Source: a virus
Strand: one strand, 5' to 3'
DNA: 45,046 nt
IMG/VR virus record: IMGVR_UViG_3300012008_000001
Span: 1 to 45,046 of that record
Numbering within the stretch: the stretch's first letter is position 1; each line of letters begins with the position of its first letter. The position numbers and the translations under genes were made by a program. Of this stretch, positions 3,610-45,046 are shown piece after piece. The notes beneath the pieces are model-generated. The model searched no databases. It worked only from the letters and a program-made list of their open reading frames with translations, and had not been told where the DNA came from.

Positions 3610-4671
3610 ATGGCTGATGCACACAAAAACTTCGCATATTCCACAGTAGCAACGGCACCAAGCACACCGACGGCTGGTACTTCTTTGGTGGTTGGTGCTG
3701 GCGCTGGCGTAAACTTCCCAGCCGCCCCTTTTAATGCCACCGTATGGCCCGCTGGTTCCCAGCCGACTGTCTCCAATGCGGAAATTGTCCGTGTTACGGC
3801 TATTTCGACCGATACTTTTACAATTACTCGTACTCAAGAGAGTAGTGCTAACCGCTCTATCTTGGTGGGCGACCAGATTGCCGCAGGCATCACTGTAAAA
3901 GCTCTCACGGACATTGAGCCGTATATTAACCCTACGGGTGCTATTAGCCCGTATGCGGGTCGTACAGCGCCTAGCAACTGGTTAATTTGTGACGGTGCCA
4001 GTGTTTCGCGCACCACTTATGCAAACCTTTTTGCGACCATTGTGCCAAATGTGGGCAACCCGACTGTTACTATTGCCACTCCTGGCGTGTTTACGCTGGC
4101 CTCTCACGGCTTTCAGACAGGTGACACGATATTCCTTACCACTACGGGTGCTTTGCCTACTGGATTGACCGCAAACACGGTTTACTACGTTATTTTTGCT
4201 AGTTCAAGTACATTCCAGTTAGCAACTACCTTTGCAAATGCCCTTGCGTCCACGGCAATTACTACGTCAGGTACACAGAGTGGCACCCACACCATTTGGG
4301 CGTGTCCGTACGGGCTTGGTGACGGTTCTACTACTTTTGGTGTTCCAGACCTCAAAGGACGCGTTGCAGCGGGTAACAATTCAATGGGTATTGGTGGTGT
4401 TACTAGACTTACTCTATCGGCCACTGGTGGTTCAGCGGGTAACTTAGGTGCAAGTGGTGGTGAACAGGCTCACCAACTTATTACTGCCGAAGTCCCATCT
4501 CATACTCATACACTTCAATCATTCACCGCGGGTGCTGGTGGTGGTGGACAGCCACTTAGTTCAAATAACACTGGTAGCCAATCTTTCCCTGCTACTAACT
4601 CCATCGGTGGTGATGGTTCTCACAACAACGTCCAGCCTACTCTAGTCGTAAACTACATAATCAAGACGTAA
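3610..4671 (+). CDS. Tail collar-domain fibre protein 1
   Basis: 353 residues. Residues 115-140 (GAISPYAGRTAPSNWLICDG) begin a phage tail collar domain, which resumes at FGVPDLKGRVAAG near 240. Between the halves sits a roughly 90-residue insertion containing LPTGLTANTVYYVIFASSST, a small beta domain. The C-terminus has SHTHTLQ, a Gly-rich stretch and ends HNNVQPTLVVNYIIKT, the usual end of collar-type receptor-binding proteins. It probably forms a short fibre that contacts the cell surface. A second collar protein with a different insertion lies at 15206. The ribosome site is a purine-rich GTGGGGGA. Confidence 0.8.
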   Translation: MADAHKNFAYSTVATAPSTPTAGTSLVVGAGAGVNFPAAPFNATVWPAGSQPTVSNAEIVRVTAISTDTFTITRTQESSANRSILVGDQIAAGITVKALTDIEPYINPTGAISPYAGRTAPSNWLICDGASVSRTTYANLFATIVPNVGNPTVTIATPGVFTLASHGFQTGDTIFLTTTGALPTGLTANTVYYVIFASSSTFQLATTFANALASTAITTSGTQSGTHTIWACPYGLGDGSTTFGVPDLKGRVAAGNNSMGIGGVTRLTLSATGGSAGNLGASGGEQAHQLITAEVPSHTHTLQSFTAGAGGGGQPLSSNNTGSQSFPATNSIGGDGSHNNVQPTLVVNYIIKT

Positions 4672-15205: not shown

Positions 15206-16051
15206 ATGCCAATTATTAACCCGACACTACCAAACGACGGCGAGACAATCGACGCTTCCGACGTAAACACGCCGTTTAACGCTATTCTTGGCGTTTTGAA
15301 CGGTGGTATCGACGCAAATAACCTGGCGAGTGGTGCGGTTACTTTGGCTCAACTGGCGGCTTCTCTGACGCCATTTTTAGTACCTACAGCAACTTTGGTG
15401 CCTTTCGCGGGCTCCGCGTCTCCAACTGGCTGGCTGATTTGTGATGGTAGCTCACTGCTCCGCGCTACTTATCCTGCTCTATTTGCTGCAATCGGCTCAA
15501 ATTTTGGCTCAGTCGATGGCACTCACTTTAACGTCCCAGATATGCGTGGCCGTATTCCTGTTGGCCGTGAAGCTATGGGCGGTACTACTTCTAACCGTAT
15601 CGAACGCTCTACGACCATTAGCACGACCAATGCTAGCCCAACTGCTACTGTAGGCTCTGCAACCAACCTATCACGCGGTATGGCTGTCGTGGCGGCTGGT
15701 GTACCCGCTGGTACGACTATTACAAATATAGTTGGTACTTCGATTACGCTTAGTGCCAACGCTACGGCTACTGCATCAGGTATTGCCGCTCGTTTCTCAA
15801 TGCTTGCCAACGACCCAGAAGTTCTGGGTGCTGCTGGCGGTACTGACGTACACACCATCGTTCTCGACCAGTTAGCAGGCCACTTCCACACGGTAGCCTC
15901 ATTTACGGCTGGTCCTGGTGGTGGTGGTGCTCCATATAGTTCTGGTAACACGGGCACTCAATCCAACCCAACTACCAGTGTTGCTGGTGGCGACCAGGCC
16001 CACCCGAACATGCAACCATCCCTAGTAACTAACTACATAATAAAAATCTAG
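15206..16051 (+). CDS. Tail collar-domain fibre protein 2
   Basis: 281 residues. Residues 1-60 form an N-terminal anchor (LPNDGETIDASDVNTPFNAI). The collar domain starts at LVPFAGSASPTGWLICDG and continues through FGSVDGTHFNVPDMRGRIPVG. An insertion of about 65 residues follows (GMAVVAAGVPAGTTITNIVG). The C-terminus HFHTVASFTAGPGGGGAPYS to NMQPSLVTNYIIKI is clearly homologous to that of the collar protein at 3610-4671. Two collar proteins with different middle modules suggest two adhesins or branches. It has its own promoter and an AAGGAG ribosome site. Confidence 0.8.
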   Translation: MPIINPTLPNDGETIDASDVNTPFNAILGVLNGGIDANNLASGAVTLAQLAASLTPFLVPTATLVPFAGSASPTGWLICDGSSLLRATYPALFAAIGSNFGSVDGTHFNVPDMRGRIPVGREAMGGTTSNRIERSTTISTTNASPTATVGSATNLSRGMAVVAAGVPAGTTITNIVGTSITLSANATATASGIAARFSMLANDPEVLGAAGGTDVHTIVLDQLAGHFHTVASFTAGPGGGGAPYSSGNTGTQSNPTTSVAGGDQAHPNMQPSLVTNYIIKI

Positions 16052-17304: not shown

Positions 17305-18318
17305 ATGGCAGACATAGGACTTGATTACGCAGGAAGCTCACCAGGCGCAGCAGCAGTAAAGGCCGCTGGCTTCAACTTTGTAATGCGGTATCTCTCCCGC
17401 TACACCGCCAAAACAATCAAGAAACCCGAATACGATGATATGACTGGCAATGGCGTCGGCGTCGGCCTAGTCTTTGAAGATTACGCTAACCAGGCACTCC
17501 AGGGCTTTGCCCAGGGCGCCGCAGACGCTCAAGTGGCTCTTGACCAAGCTAACGCGCTTGGCTGGCCCGAAAGCCGCCCATTATACTTTGCAGTCGATTT
17601 TGACATCAATGATGCCCAGAAACCCGTAGCAGGCGAATATATGAAAGGCGTACACTCAGTTATCGGCGTCGGCCGAGCAGGTGCTTACGGTGGCTACTGG
17701 TGGATTAAATACTGTGTTGATAACGGGCTCGCTACATTCTTTTGGCAGGCAGTTGCTTGGTCGGGTGGCCAGGTTCACCCTAGCGCAAACTTGTTCCAGA
17801 GGCTTGGTGGGACTACAGTAAACGGTACGAGCTGTGATATTAACGATGCTCTCAAAGCAGATTACGGGCAAAATAACTACAAAGGGGACCCAGATATGGC
17901 AAACGCACAACAAATCGACGACACTATCGCTCTTATTAACCAAGTAGGTTGGGCGCACGATGCTACCCCAGCTATATTTGATAACTTACGCCAATACCTT
18001 GGTAACAACTACATTGACGGTATTATTCAGATTATGAAAAATGCCGATGTGGACCCTAACTCCGCAAAGGGTATGCTGCACACCACACAGGCTCAGCTCA
18101 CCGATATTTCTACCCAGCTAGCGGCAGCTCAGAACCAGGACAATGTCGATAAAGCCGCTTTGGCCGACGCTCTCAAGAAAATCGACGACCTACAAAAGCA
18201 ACTTGCGACACCTGGAACTCCGACTACACCTACCGACCCGACCACACCAGTCGTGACTGTTGGCGGCAACCAAAGCTTCTGGGATTGGGTTAAAAGTCTC
18301 TTTTCCAAGAAACCGTAG
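17305..18318 (+). CDS. Endolysin, DUF1906 (GH25-like TIM barrel) with cationic tail
   Basis: 337 residues. Residues 1-195 match the DUF1906/Rv2525c-like glycoside-hydrolase-like domain: GLDYAG at the start, GLVFEDYANQALQGFAQGA, PLYFAVDFDIND with acidic residues on strand ends, GAYGGYWWIKYC, and the closing FQRLGGTTVNGTSCDINDA. Members are thought to cleave cell-wall glycans. Residues 200-290 are helical with a coiled coil (QLTDISTQLAAAQNQDNVDK). A Pro/Thr linker leads to a short amphipathic, basic end (SFWDWVKSLFSKKP). No signal peptide, so release would depend on the holin 34 bases downstream. Confidence 0.75.
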   Translation: MADIGLDYAGSSPGAAAVKAAGFNFVMRYLSRYTAKTIKKPEYDDMTGNGVGVGLVFEDYANQALQGFAQGAADAQVALDQANALGWPESRPLYFAVDFDINDAQKPVAGEYMKGVHSVIGVGRAGAYGGYWWIKYCVDNGLATFFWQAVAWSGGQVHPSANLFQRLGGTTVNGTSCDINDALKADYGQNNYKGDPDMANAQQIDDTIALINQVGWAHDATPAIFDNLRQYLGNNYIDGIIQIMKNADVDPNSAKGMLHTTQAQLTDISTQLAAAQNQDNVDKAALADALKKIDDLQKQLATPGTPTTPTDPTTPVVTVGGNQSFWDWVKSLFSKKP

Positions 18319-19619: not shown

Positions 19620-20198
19620 CTACCACCAGTGATTATTCAGCCAAAAACCGTAAGCAGCTTCCCAGCTACCGTATTTACTGATTGCATAGTTGGTGAAGAA
19701 CTCATTTTGGCAAGCATAGTCGGCGCCACAGGGCAGTTTTGAACCTGGACACGCTTGGCCTATGCCACGACACCCCAGACTATTCACAGCGTTCAAATTA
19801 CAGCCGCTTTCATGGCTATAAATGTACTGGGAGTACATATTATCGCCACAACCCGCTACAACGGCTGAAACGGGCTGAGAAACGGCCACAGGAGCAACTG
19901 CGGCTGGCTTATCAATACAATTGAATGGCGCGTCCTGAGCTATGTATTGAGTGCTCTGGTCGCAATGATTTGGGTTATCTTGCCAAGTTGTCGGCACTAC
20001 CGCAACAGGGGTAGATACTGGCACTGGTGTAGCCGTAACAGGGGTAGCCACTTTTGAACTTGTCGGCACTACCCTGTTAATGCTTGCTTGCTTAGGTGTT
20101 ACTGGGCGTGGTACGGGGGCTGCATAAACCACCATACTACTAGTTATCAGAAGCGCTGCCGTAACTTGCAACGCATCTAAGATATGAGTTTTTTTCAT
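19620..20198 (-). CDS. Secreted cell-wall protein with Saccharibacteria-type NHWW domain
   Basis: 192 residues from the ATG at 20198 (a TTG 18 bases upstream is a weaker alternative). A signal peptide is clear: MKKTH, hydrophobic ALQVTAALLITSSMVVYA, then APVP. About 95 residues of Pro/Val/Thr/Ala linker follow with Cys pairs (NPNHCDQSTQY, APFNC). The last 70 residues (SQYIYSHESGCNLNAVNS, RGIGQACPGSKLPCGADYAC, YGSWEAAYGFWLNNHWW) are a lysozyme-like transglycosylase domain with HESGC at the expected catalytic Glu. I associate this domain with Saccharibacteria. It may remodel peptidoglycan outside the cell; the second wall enzyme of the phage. Confidence 0.7.
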   Translation of the reverse strand: MKKTHILDALQVTAALLITSSMVVYAAPVPRPVTPKQASINRVVPTSSKVATPVTATPVPVSTPVAVVPTTWQDNPNHCDQSTQYIAQDAPFNCIDKPAAVAPVAVSQPVSAVVAGCGDNMYSQYIYSHESGCNLNAVNSLGCRGIGQACPGSKLPCGADYACQNEFFTNYAISKYGSWEAAYGFWLNNHWW

Positions 20199-20246
20199 AG
20201 TCGCGACCCTGGACAATGACAGATGTGGGCCTCAGCTAATCCTCTC

Positions 20247-20971: not shown

Positions 20972-21276
20972 TAGCTTACGTCCACCCTCACCGCCAATAT
21001 TGGTGGCATCGCGCCCTCTATTACAGGGTCGAAACTGGGGCTACTGAGCATCATCATCACGCCGTCTCGTTCTGGCGCGGCCCAGACACTCTCTACCACG
21101 GCATCGTCAGGTATACCAGTAGTAAACTTAGTATTGGCACGCCAACGAACACCCTCTTTAAACAGGCTCATAAACCCCGCGCGCTCGATAAATAGTATCG
21201 CCAGGTGGCGTACCCGTACCTCTTGCAAGTCGGGCTTTTTAACTTCAAATCGTTCGTCTTCGTCTTTTTTAGTCAT
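20971..21276 (-). CDS. Hypothetical protein
   Basis: 101 residues if started at the ATG at 21276, which overlaps the end of the RusA gene and has GGAG upstream; a longer form starting at 21321 would run deep into RusA and is less likely. Segments: a charged N-terminus, LQEVRVRHLAILFIERAGFM, then GVRWRANTKFTTGIPDD and a C-terminus with ILAVRVDVS. It may be a small alpha/beta protein. No family recognised. Confidence 0.55.
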   Translation of the reverse strand: MTKKDEDERFEVKKPDLQEVRVRHLAILFIERAGFMSLFKEGVRWRANTKFTTGIPDDAVVESVWAAPERDGVMMMLSSPSFDPVIEGAMPPILAVRVDVS

Positions 21277-21643
21277 CGAGGTAAATCTCCACTCTTGGGT
21301 TAAGTTTATCGTGCCCACCATATTGAAGTTGTAGGCAATCTACGAAATTCACGTTGTCGTCTTCGATAATCTGGGCGGCCGTGAGAGCGTCCATAACACT
21401 GCTGGCAGCATTATCGAGGTCATGGCGGCGCAAATTATCAAAGAAAAATATACAGGTAACGCTTATTGGGTAGCCAGAAACGTGGTAGCCCTTGAACTGT
21501 TGGCTTAGTTCACCGAGTGCCCGCTCCTGCCAATCTTTCACGGCAGGCGCACTCCGCAGAAACGGGCGCCCAGTGGCACGATTAACAGATATAATCTTGC
21601 GATTTTTCTGGCTAGGTACGTTACCCTTGACGGTGAGCAGCAT
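21269..21643 (-). CDS. rusA: RusA-type Holliday junction resolvase
   Basis: 124 residues, the usual RusA length. It begins with a strand and the VPSQKNRK motif, then RRHDLDNAASSVMDALTAAQ with Asp75 and Asp77-Asn78, Asp85, and IIEDDNVNFVDCLQLQYGG with Asp95/Asp96, the acidic residues that bind metal in RusA, and ends PRVEIYL. It would resolve branched DNA before packaging. It shares TAATG with the homing nuclease upstream. Confidence 0.9.
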   Translation of the reverse strand: MLLTVKGNVPSQKNRKIISVNRATGRPFLRSAPAVKDWQERALGELSQQFKGYHVSGYPISVTCIFFFDNLRRHDLDNAASSVMDALTAAQIIEDDNVNFVDCLQLQYGGHDKLNPRVEIYLDD

Positions 21644-22128
21644 TATATTGACCGCCTAACTGCAATAGCTTCTTCAAGCGTTTTGTATTTACCGTAATAT
21701 CGTCTAACACCGTTTCTTTGAACCAAAACCTCAAACCCGTTATGTTTACGGCTTACACCTGTTACGCCAGTGCTATTATTTATCCCCATTCTTCGATTTT
21801 GTGCTTGTTGTGTCTTAGTGGCCCAGCGACAATTTTTAGGTGAGTAACCCCCGTTATTATCTATACGGTCGATACTATGTAACTTAGATGGACGTGGGCC
21901 CATATCTATTAAAAAATTATCAAAACTTTTTAGCCATCTGTCACAAATCGTGATGCCTCTACCACCATAGTGGCGATAGTATTGGTCATTTGGGTTAAGA
22001 CAACGACTTTTCATGCTATGCCACGCTTTACGTTCAGGGTTTGCTCGTAAGTAAATAGTGGAAGAGTGACTGTTGCACATCTCATTACGTCGTGTCGGCC
22101 TATCACACCCTTGTATTTTACAAATCAT
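21643..22128 (-). CDS. HNH homing endonuclease with AP2-like DNA-binding domain
   Basis: 161 residues. The N-terminus has a small zinc motif ([19 protein letters not shown]). Residues 35-115 are an HNH core of the homing type ([20 protein letters not shown], then [20 protein letters not shown]). The C-terminus [20 protein letters not shown] to [12 protein letters not shown] is an AP2-like DNA-binding domain. Free-standing genes of this sort spread themselves between phage genomes. It overlaps the upstream HNH-like gene by 11 bases, so insertion was neat. Confidence 0.85.
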
Positions 22129-22384
22129 GGTGAGCTTTCTGATGGCAATCGCGAGTCAGCCATACCATTTTAGATTTATCGAACAACAGTTTACCAGAAC
22201 GGCCCCAAACATGATGTAAGTCGAGTTCTGGCAAGCCAACACCACAACGAGGTAGATTTATTTTCCAATCTTGGCAGTGTAAAATACCCTCTTCGTCGCG
22301 GTCCTTAACTGCCTCAGCGTCTCTAAATGCTTTCCAAGCATCAGCCGTCGGGCCCCTACGTTTGAGAGGTGTTCTGCGTAACAC
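22118..22384 (-). CDS. HNH-like/NinG-type recombination nuclease
   Basis: 88 residues from a GTG with a strong AAGGAG. It begins with a basic [11 protein letters not shown], has [13 protein letters not shown] and ends [11 protein letters not shown]...[14 protein letters not shown]. The Cys/His spacing and the HH, N-less WL, CHQxAH order fit the short HNH/NinG-like nucleases that process recombination intermediates in phages. The role is inferred. Confidence 0.65.
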
Positions 22385-22998: not shown

Positions 22999-23352
22999 TT
23001 AAGTGTTAAATGAGTCGTCCACGGCTTTTTTGAAACCGTATATCGCTTTGTTGTAATAGGGTAGGAAATCTTCTTTTGAACCACCAAGACTCATGTGCTT
23101 AGCGAACAGGCTGCGGCGCAAATCCTGTGATGGTGAAACACTGCCTTTGGCGGTGGCGTTTTCCTTTGGTATCTCAGTACCATCAAATTCGTTAGTCTTA
23201 AACGCTAGCCAGCCCGCCTGCTTCCAATACTGGTCCATGAGCAGATACTCTTTCGAGTCTATCTCTTCCATTGTTTGGAACACAAGATTAACCGACCCGT
23301 CGTTATTACGGGTCGATTTCTTGAGCTGCGTTTTAAGCAGTAGTGTTTTCAT
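22999..23352 (-). CDS. Hypothetical protein next to the sponge gene
   Basis: 117 residues. It has a strand-rich first half (LLLKTQLKKSTRNNDGSVNL) and a helical end (KEDFLPYYNKAIYGFKKAVD). It starts on the stop of the Tad1/Acb2-like gene (TAATG), so the two are translationally coupled and may work together. No family recognised. Confidence 0.55.
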   Translation of the reverse strand: MKTLLLKTQLKKSTRNNDGSVNLVFQTMEEIDSKEYLLMDQYWKQAGWLAFKTNEFDGTEIPKENATAKGSVSPSQDLRRSLFAKHMSLGGSKEDFLPYYNKAIYGFKKAVDDSFNT

Positions 23353-23717
23353 TAAAGCGCGTGCTGGCCCTCTACGCCACGGTCAGCACGGTCTTTGCGT
23401 CGGCCATCAAGTGCCGTAAGAGCTTTCTTGAGGTTGTCGATTGCATCGGCGTTGTACTGAGTTTCATATTTGCTAGCCTGGAAGAACTCTAGGCGCTGTA
23501 GGGCTGCGTAAATAGCGTCCTCTACAAAAGCACCGTTACTAGGCGCCAGGTTGCCCTCGGCGTCCTTGCCGCGTGGGCCGTCCTGCCAGTCAATGATGAC
23601 TCCCTGGCCACGTACGCCACCACCAGTAGGGTTTTCGTCCTGGTCCACACCATTAGTGAGCACCAGGGGTTGTACGTTCAGCGCTAAATAGTTGTCGGGT
23701 ACAGATGTTTCGTTCAT
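23352..23717 (-). CDS. Tad1/Acb2-like signal-nucleotide sponge (anti-Thoeris/anti-CBASS candidate)
   Basis: 121 residues. Residues 36-80 (RGQGVIIDWQDGPRG, then SNGAFVEDAIYAALQRLEFFQ) resemble the N-terminal half of Tad1-type proteins, and residues 88-119 (YNADAIDNLKKALTALDGRR to DRADRGVEGQH) match the helical hairpin shared by Acb2 and Tad1, including the characteristic R-G-V-E-G-x-H near the end. Family members bind and hide immune signal nucleotides (cyclic oligonucleotides of CBASS, gcADPR of Thoeris). Which ligand this one binds cannot be read from sequence. AGAGGA precedes the ATG. Confidence 0.7.
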   Translation of the reverse strand: MNETSVPDNYLALNVQPLVLTNGVDQDENPTGGGVRGQGVIIDWQDGPRGKDAEGNLAPSNGAFVEDAIYAALQRLEFFQASKYETQYNADAIDNLKKALTALDGRRKDRADRGVEGQHAL

Positions 23718-23719
23718 AG

Positions 23720-24067
23720 TTATTTCCTCTTTCGCTTTAATTTAAGTTCTGCGGCCTCAGCGCGAGCTTTCCACTCATCACGGTCGCTGGTACGGTCCAG
23801 TTCTTTGTCGCGCACTTCAATGCGGCGCTCTAGGAACTTGATACGATTAGCCAAGGCTTCATTGGCCCCCAAAGCATGTCCAGCGTTCTGGGCAAGTTCC
23901 ACAATTTTTGCTACTGCGGGGTCGAGTTGCCTTTTAGCAATCTGCTTTCTAAGATGGTTGCGGCGTTCACCCATTTGTCGAAAATCACGGGACATCATAT
24001 CCATAGAGTCTTCGGCTTGGGATAGTTCCTGCTCCAAATTCATTTCGTCGTCTTCTGGGAATTGCAT
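23720..24067 (-). CDS. Coiled-coil hypothetical protein
   Basis: 115 residues, helical nearly throughout, with charged heptad stretches (EQELSQAEDSMDMMSRDFRQ, RIKFLERRIEVRDKELDR) and a basic tail (LKLKRKRK). AAAGGGG precedes the ATG. It could be a structural adaptor or DNA-associated protein. No family recognised. Confidence 0.55.
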   Translation of the reverse strand: MQFPEDDEMNLEQELSQAEDSMDMMSRDFRQMGERRNHLRKQIAKRQLDPAVAKIVELAQNAGHALGANEALANRIKFLERRIEVRDKELDRTSDRDEWKARAEAAELKLKRKRK

Positions 24068-24068
24068 A

Positions 24069-24266
24069 CTACCCCTTTCGTTTAACGGTCAAAAAGCCGT
24101 TCCTTGGGTTTTCGCTTACTTCGCGGTCGTCGGGCAGCACGGTAGCTGTCTCTGGCCGAGCGTCTTTACTGAAATAGAAAATGCGTTGGACCTTGCCACC
24201 TCGGAGTGTTACGTCTTTGGCGTTCAGGTGGTACAGAGTACCTTTGCTGTTGCGGTGTGAATACAT
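24069..24266 (-). CDS. Small protein of a type common in Patescibacteria
   Basis: 65 residues: SHRNSKGTLYHLNAKDVTLR, GGKVQRIFYFSKDARPETAT, then ENPRNGFLTVKRK. I recall short proteins with YYLN...VTLRGGK...IYYFSKD...P...ENPRNGFL from Saccharibacteria and relatives; there they are of unknown function. This is one of the two host clues in the window. AGAGG precedes the ATG; 1 base separates it from the next gene. Confidence 0.6.
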   Translation of the reverse strand: MYSHRNSKGTLYHLNAKDVTLRGGKVQRIFYFSKDARPETATVLPDDREVSENPRNGFLTVKRKG

Positions 24267-44260: not shown

Positions 44261-45046
44261 ATGGAAGAAGACTCCACAACTGTTGCAGCGAATGACCAGG
44301 CAGAGGATACCTCTACTGACTCGACAGCGACAACGGACGACCAGAACACCGATAACGGTGACGACCTGGACACATCGACATCAACCGAGGAAGACTCGAC
44401 TGATGGTGAAAGCGGCGACGCCGACACTACCACCGATGACAACTCAACCGATGAAGTTACTCACGCCAAGCAGTTCGATACCGACCTTGCTGAATGGGCT
44501 GAGAAAACTGGTCGTAAAATACCAGAGACGGACGAAGACCGTGCTTTACTTCAAGAAGTAAGAGACGGCCAACGCGAGTTCACCCGTTCCAAGCAGGCAA
44601 AAGACGCCGTAAAAGACGTTAATAAGGCAGTTAAAGATGCCCAGCCTGAGCAAACAGCAGACGAATATGCAGACCCTCTCGAAAAGAGGGTAGCAGAGGC
44701 AGAGGCCCGCCAAGCGGAGTCCGAAGCACTGCGCCTGCGTAGCGAATACGTCTCTGAAAACAATGTCACTGTCGAAGAGTCCAATGTTATGGCGACTATC
44801 TTGAAAGAGAAAGTCGAAAAGGCAGCCGCTATTAGTCCTGAAAAGGGCAAAGCAGCGTTTGACTACTGGTCCGACCCAGCAAACTTGGAAGACTGGCATG
44901 CTTTAGCGAAAGCTAGGCTTGCATCGACTAACACTGACACTTCCCAAATCGAAGCAGAAGCGGCTCGTAAAGAGCGAGAAAAAATTGCCAGAGAGAGTAA
45001 AGCAAACGGCCCAGCTCGTAATGCAACTCAGGCTCAGACTGGCACC
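44261..45046 (+). CDS. Putative scaffolding protein (5' part, runs off the end)
   Basis: 262 codons, in frame to the last base of the window; the remaining 15 codons and stop are at 100-147 after closure (277 residues). The N-terminal 65 residues are Asp/Thr/Ser/Glu-rich and disordered. From residue 70 it is helical and charged, with a coiled coil (LEKRVAEAEARQAESEALRL), then helices to a basic end. Acidic-disordered, coiled-coil, basic-tail order is typical of scaffolds; the coat gene follows. AAGGAG precedes the ATG. Confidence 0.75.
   Translation, partial: MEEDSTTVAANDQAEDTSTDSTATTDDQNTDNGDDLDTSTSTEEDSTDGESGDADTTTDDNSTDEVTHAKQFDTDLAEWAEKTGRKIPETDEDRALLQEVRDGQREFTRSKQAKDAVKDVNKAVKDAQPEQTADEYADPLEKRVAEAEARQAESEALRLRSEYVSENNVTVEESNVMATILKEKVEKAAAISPEKGKAAFDYWSDPANLEDWHALAKARLASTNTDTSQIEAEAARKEREKIARESKANGPARNATQAQTGT
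44948..45046. repeat. Terminal direct repeat (right copy), circularisation overlap
   Basis: Identical to 1-99. See the left copy. Confidence 0.95.

Follow-up and report, generated by a model that had tools for sequence, protein, structure and literature searches.

Does a small gene in an environmental phage encode a sponge for the nucleotide signals of bacterial immunity, and what would such a gene say about the host? The question is raised by P0001, the product of a leftward gene in the window, by which we mean the whole 45,046-nucleotide stretch analysed (IMG/VR record IMGVR_UViG_3300012008_000001). The Tad1 family is already described, large and frequent in phages. Tad1 forms hexamers that sequester gcADPR, cyclic dinucleotides and cyclic trinucleotides, and blocks the effectors of Thoeris and CBASS (PMC12043709).

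The window carries an exact direct terminal repeat of 99 bases (1-99 and 44948-45046) and therefore probably represents a complete genome. Among named relatives, the nearest is the Manatee Spring podovirus MW202692.1, which is circular and 44,932 bases long and matches at 70% for the terminase and 77% for the capsid protein. A sequence-only reading had proposed a 121-residue protein with a helical hairpin ending in R-G-V-E-G-x-H, and the frame lies exactly where it was placed: 121 codons run from an ATG to a TAA, a Shine-Dalgarno-like AGAGGA stands 7 bases 5' of the start, and the motif occurs as R-G-V-E-G-Q-H at residues 113-119, in the C-terminal part of P0001.

Family and predicted fold of P0001

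Searched alone against the PDB with phmmer, P0001 retrieved only Tad1 chains at E <0.01, the best being CmTad1 (8kbb, 3.4e-5). A profile built from P0001 and seven phage homologs reached 3.2e-28 for 8kbb and 2.6e-20 for CbTad1 (7uav), and the phage-homolog profile matched phiKZ gp184 at 5.5e-15. With tested Tad1 proteins P0001 shares a low 24-36% identity; SBSphiJ7 Tad1, one of these tested members, reaches 36% (E 6e-8). A more distant profile of five phage Tad1 homologs, from which the query and its near kin had been left out, still scored P0001 at E 3.6e-18, while none of 1000 shuffled versions fell below 0.96, which rules out a chance resemblance. This signal comes almost wholly from the C-terminal half; the N-terminal half is recognized at the sequence level by the near-family profile only (E 2.5e-10). 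Taken together, sequence comparisons firmly indicate the homology of P0001 with Tad1.

PF24729, the Acb2/Tad1 hairpin model, does not match P0001 and appears narrow, because it matches only one of eight phage homologs; more generally, the Pfam and NCBIfam models miss most phage Tad1 homologs tried. Their silence on P0001 was therefore not taken as absence of Tad1, most other family members being negative as well. All eight members of the A1 set, SBSphiJ7 Tad1 among them, match PHROG 2428, a group that P0001 and SBSphiJ7 Tad1 have in common. Weak matches of P0001 to MerD (0.096) and Sld3_N (0.0099, below the cut-off) were taken as chance, and a search for related loci with P0001 alone or the A1 set as query returned nothing.

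The AF2 model of P0001, computed as a monomer from a 53-row alignment, has a mean pLDDT of 93.4 and contains three strands (residues 19-24, 30-37 and 40-44) followed by two helices (65-80 and 87-112). The published Tad1 protomer consists of an N-terminal antiparallel sheet and two long C-terminal helices (PMC12043709), and the model agrees with this layout. In a Foldseek search of the PDB, ranks 1 to 20 were all Tad1 with a probability of 1.00, and rank 21 had an E-value of 0.28; CmTad1 (8kbb) aligned over the full length of P0001 with a TM-score of 0.72, and CbTad1 (8smd) with 0.58. P0001 shares its predicted full-length fold with the known proteins SBSphiJ7 Tad1, CbTad1, CmTad1 and phiKZ gp184, which are also phage-borne and similar in size. 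Among viral structure models the best match was a protein of Vibrio phage VP-1 (TM 0.81), the closest modelled relative, which owes its name 'Acb2/Tad1 hairpin domain-containing protein' to UniProt. It and its VAP7 counterpart are 42% identical to P0001 over 86% of its length; they belong to large Ackermannviridae phages, where the gene context is unlike that of P0001.

The designation 'Tad1/Acb2-like' holds only in its first part, which is borne out by sequence, fold and residues. Acb2, or anti-CBASS 2, works by a sponge mechanism like that of Tad1 (PMC12043709), and its two-helix hairpin is common to P0001. However, Acb2 proteins have no N-terminal β-sheet, whereas the model of P0001 does, and the only Acb2 protein found by Foldseek was T4 Vs.4 with a non-significant match (E 3.0, probability 0.23). 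An Acb2 protein or a Tad1/Acb2 hybrid was rejected on these grounds.

One scan of IMG/VR yielded 84 viral relatives of P0001 with 37-54% identity, of which 80 were kept. Twelve residues are invariant in 53 sequences: G33, Q45, G47, N61, G62, F64, E66, R75, N89, A92, R106 and R110. All except G33 and F64 are also invariant in the A1 set with its authentic Tad1. F79, N89, R106 and R110 align with chain positions 83, 93, 110 and 114 of CbTad1; allowing for one tag residue, these correspond to F82, N92, R109 and R113, which we take to be the ligand-site residues. P0001 deviates from many of its relatives at a conserved stretch, with T86 in place of C and Q87/Y88 in place of R/K and E, and these changes might alter its ligand preference. 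Since sequence, fold and conserved residues all support Tad1 membership, the sequence-only reading survives the two findings on which it could have failed, a lack of structural similarity and a loss of conserved residues: the fold matches, and the family-invariant residues are kept. The combined evidence supports P0001 as a full-length Tad1-family protein.

Within the family, P0001 belongs to a GNP-x-GG / NGAFVED subfamily that is common in environmental phages. In a tree from a short alignment, with many forks unresolved, it falls into a starred group of 15 rows that includes L009-L024-type sequences, apart from SBSphiJ7 Tad1.

Genomic setting of the gene

The gene lies in a leftward block encoding a primase, a KaiC/DnaB-like ATPase, a helicase and RusA, while the head and tail genes occupy the opposite strand. 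Its immediate neighbourhood is summarized in Table 1.

Table 1. The candidate Tad1 gene and its neighbours in the window
Feature	Position	Strand	Evidence
65-aa conserved flanking gene, left anchor	24069..24266	(-)	Homolog 74% in MW202692.1 and 48% in L106
115-aa probable coiled-coil protein, inserted with or beside Tad1	23720..24067	(-)	Lies between two genes that are adjacent in relatives
Tad1-family sponge gene (candidate), product P0001, 121 aa	23352..23717	(-)	phmmer, profile, AF2 model, absence from syntenic relatives
117-aa core phage gene, right anchor	22999..23352	(-)	58-65% identical homologs in three Tad1-less relatives

Homologs of the two anchor genes adjoin in MW202692.1 and in the IMG/VR contig L106; in the window the anchors are separated by the Tad1 gene together with the 115-aa gene. 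For the 115-aa protein, no homolog was found in phage records. A Tad1 profile that finds Tad1 in four positive controls detected none in the contigs L100, L105 and L106, though the homolog of the right anchor is present in all three. Because these relatives keep the right anchor in its gene order without Tad1, we regard the anchor as core and Tad1 as accessory. Such presence and absence within a conserved gene order is the pattern expected of counter-defence genes. The Tad1 gene also has the highest GC content of the 56 listed genes (55.2%, compared with 48.3% for the whole window), which fits a separate origin without proving one.

The same result bears on the right anchor, which the sequence-only reading had put forward as a possible partner of the sponge. 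The TAA of the Tad1 gene and the ATG of the anchor do overlap by one base, which might suggest a functional pairing; however, tight packing is general in this block, the anchor persists in the same gene order in the three Tad1-less relatives, and not one of the 80 Tad1 loci retrieved contains it. A partnership is therefore extremely improbable, and the proposal was abandoned.

Three further features of the window and its relatives were recorded. Close to Tad1, a 161-aa protein resembling HNH/AP2-type homing endonucleases (21643-22128, minus strand) is encoded between the gene at 22118-22384 and the RusA-like gene at 21269-21643, the homologs of which adjoin in L105, suggesting a second accessory insertion. 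In ten loci (L021, L026, L038, L044, L049, L053, L056, L058, L065 and L087), the Tad1-like gene and a terminase gene are no more than about 4 kb apart; the terminase is related to that of the window, and the context of Tad1 is quite unlike the one in the window. Finally, two collar- or fibre-like proteins on the plus strand (3610-4671 and 15206-16051) have near-alike C-terminal segments (H-x-HT...GGGG...NTGTQS...NYIIK), which suggests a duplication.

Proposed function and alternatives

P0001 is very probably a Tad1-type sponge, encoded by an accessory gene, that sequesters the cyclic oligonucleotides of CBASS and/or the gcADPR of Thoeris. Its oligomer, ligand, counter-defence activity and expression timing are features that we infer. 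P0001 would most likely assemble like known Tad1, as a hexamer of three dimers, and would hold the antiviral second messengers of the host without cleaving them, be it CBASS cyclic di- and trinucleotides, Thoeris gcADPR or both. Once the signal is sequestered, the suicide effector of the host would stay off. The gene itself is an accessory insertion, made together with the 115-aa gene or next to it, in the leftward block for replication and recombination of a podovirus-like phage.

Two other explanations were weighed. P0001 could be a Tad1-fold protein that travels in the virion and enters the cell together with the phage DNA instead of being made there afterwards, possibly still acting as a sponge. 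This possibility is raised by phiKZ gp184, a profile match that was shown to be injected (PMC10449902), with a review likewise describing the phiKZ Tad1 as injected (PMC13282480), and by the structural annotation of some relatives (Lactococcus 1706, Bacillus P59, Klebsiella Eowyn). In the window, however, the gene is located among replication and recombination genes and opposite to those for head and tail, which argues for expression inside the cell and makes a virion protein improbable. The low identity to tested members and the changed residues 86-88 would also be compatible with a drifted Tad1 fold that serves another nucleotide or phage regulation and has no action on CBASS or Thoeris. Against such drift, every family-invariant residue has been retained, and the accessory status of the gene is not that of a housekeeping regulator, so that we give this explanation little credence. 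Sequestration of a host immune signal thus remains our preferred reading of P0001.

Host clues and signal-based immunity

Two lysin candidates bear on the host. The main clue is the lysin-like protein with a C-terminal domain at 19620-20216 (minus strand), whose nearest matches among genomes lie in two MAGs (61-62%). Of these, G002 (0.8 Mb) falls in a phylum resembling the Candidate Phyla Radiation (CPR), and most sampled genomes of this CPR-like phylum measure 0.5-1.1 Mb. Ribosomal protein L30 is missing in 47 of 49 genomes of the phylum, whereas 13 of 14 controls have it; CPR bacteria are known for lacking L30. Lysins of this type were also seen elsewhere in the phylum, in 12 of 192 genomes. 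The second candidate (17305-18318, plus strand) contains an Rv2525c-like glycoside hydrolase domain and is closest to lysins of Mycobacterium and Gordonia phages. Judged by sequence similarity, the first lysin points to a CPR host and the second to Actinobacteria, and the two signals conflict. No close CPR provirus turned up when the terminase of the window was searched, its matches being limited to four of 287 genomes (27-34%). The host with a reduced genome assumed by the sequence-only reading is thus favoured by the first lysin and the L30 pattern, whereas the actinobacterial-type lysin and the provirus search speak against it.

Would bacteria of this kind use the signals that a sponge removes? 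In the CPR-like phylum, SMODS, the CD-NTase domain, was found above the cut-off in 15 of 287 genomes (about 5%) and TIR_2 in four of the 287; the Tad1 profile, which passed its positive control, found no Tad1 in the same genomes. G160 (0.7 Mb; L137:4446-6435, G160:C13) encodes NucC (E 2.5e-68) followed by a cyclase with an AGS_C domain, and cyclases stand beside 2TM or 4TM effectors in G204 (L140:537-2340), G255 (L138:4104-5949) and G126 (L141:3117-4939). This gene context supports the presence of putative CBASS operons in the phylum. A groundwater survey found defence systems in CPR genomes, and in groundwater phages anti-Thoeris was the commonest anti-defence type, accounting for 27.7% of anti-defence genes (PMC12259885). 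Together with the CBASS operons, these data make a sponge in such a phage plausible rather than startling.

A sponge gene suggests that hosts are exposed to signal-based defences but does not prove the presence of any one pathway in any one host. The claim that the host uses cyclic-nucleotide or gcADPR signalling is therefore kept as a suggestion, in line with the CBASS operons of the CPR-like phylum. We propose only tentatively that the phage infects a CPR (Patescibacteria) bacterium; the sponge would then indicate that ultrasmall episymbionts are under active selection by abortive immunity with nucleotide signals, CBASS being the likeliest form.

In environmental phages, Tad1 proteins of the GNP-x-GG / NGAFVED subfamily are widespread, yet Pfam and NCBIfam models miss them. 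The possible ultrasmall bacterial host is the only unusual point of this Tad1 gene. The CBASS operons described above, which pair cyclases with NucC or 2TM/4TM effectors, come from genomes of just 0.7-1.3 Mb and would be a plausible target of the sponge despite genome reduction. What is new here is one more phage lineage among the carriers of Tad1, possibly one that infects CPR bacteria.
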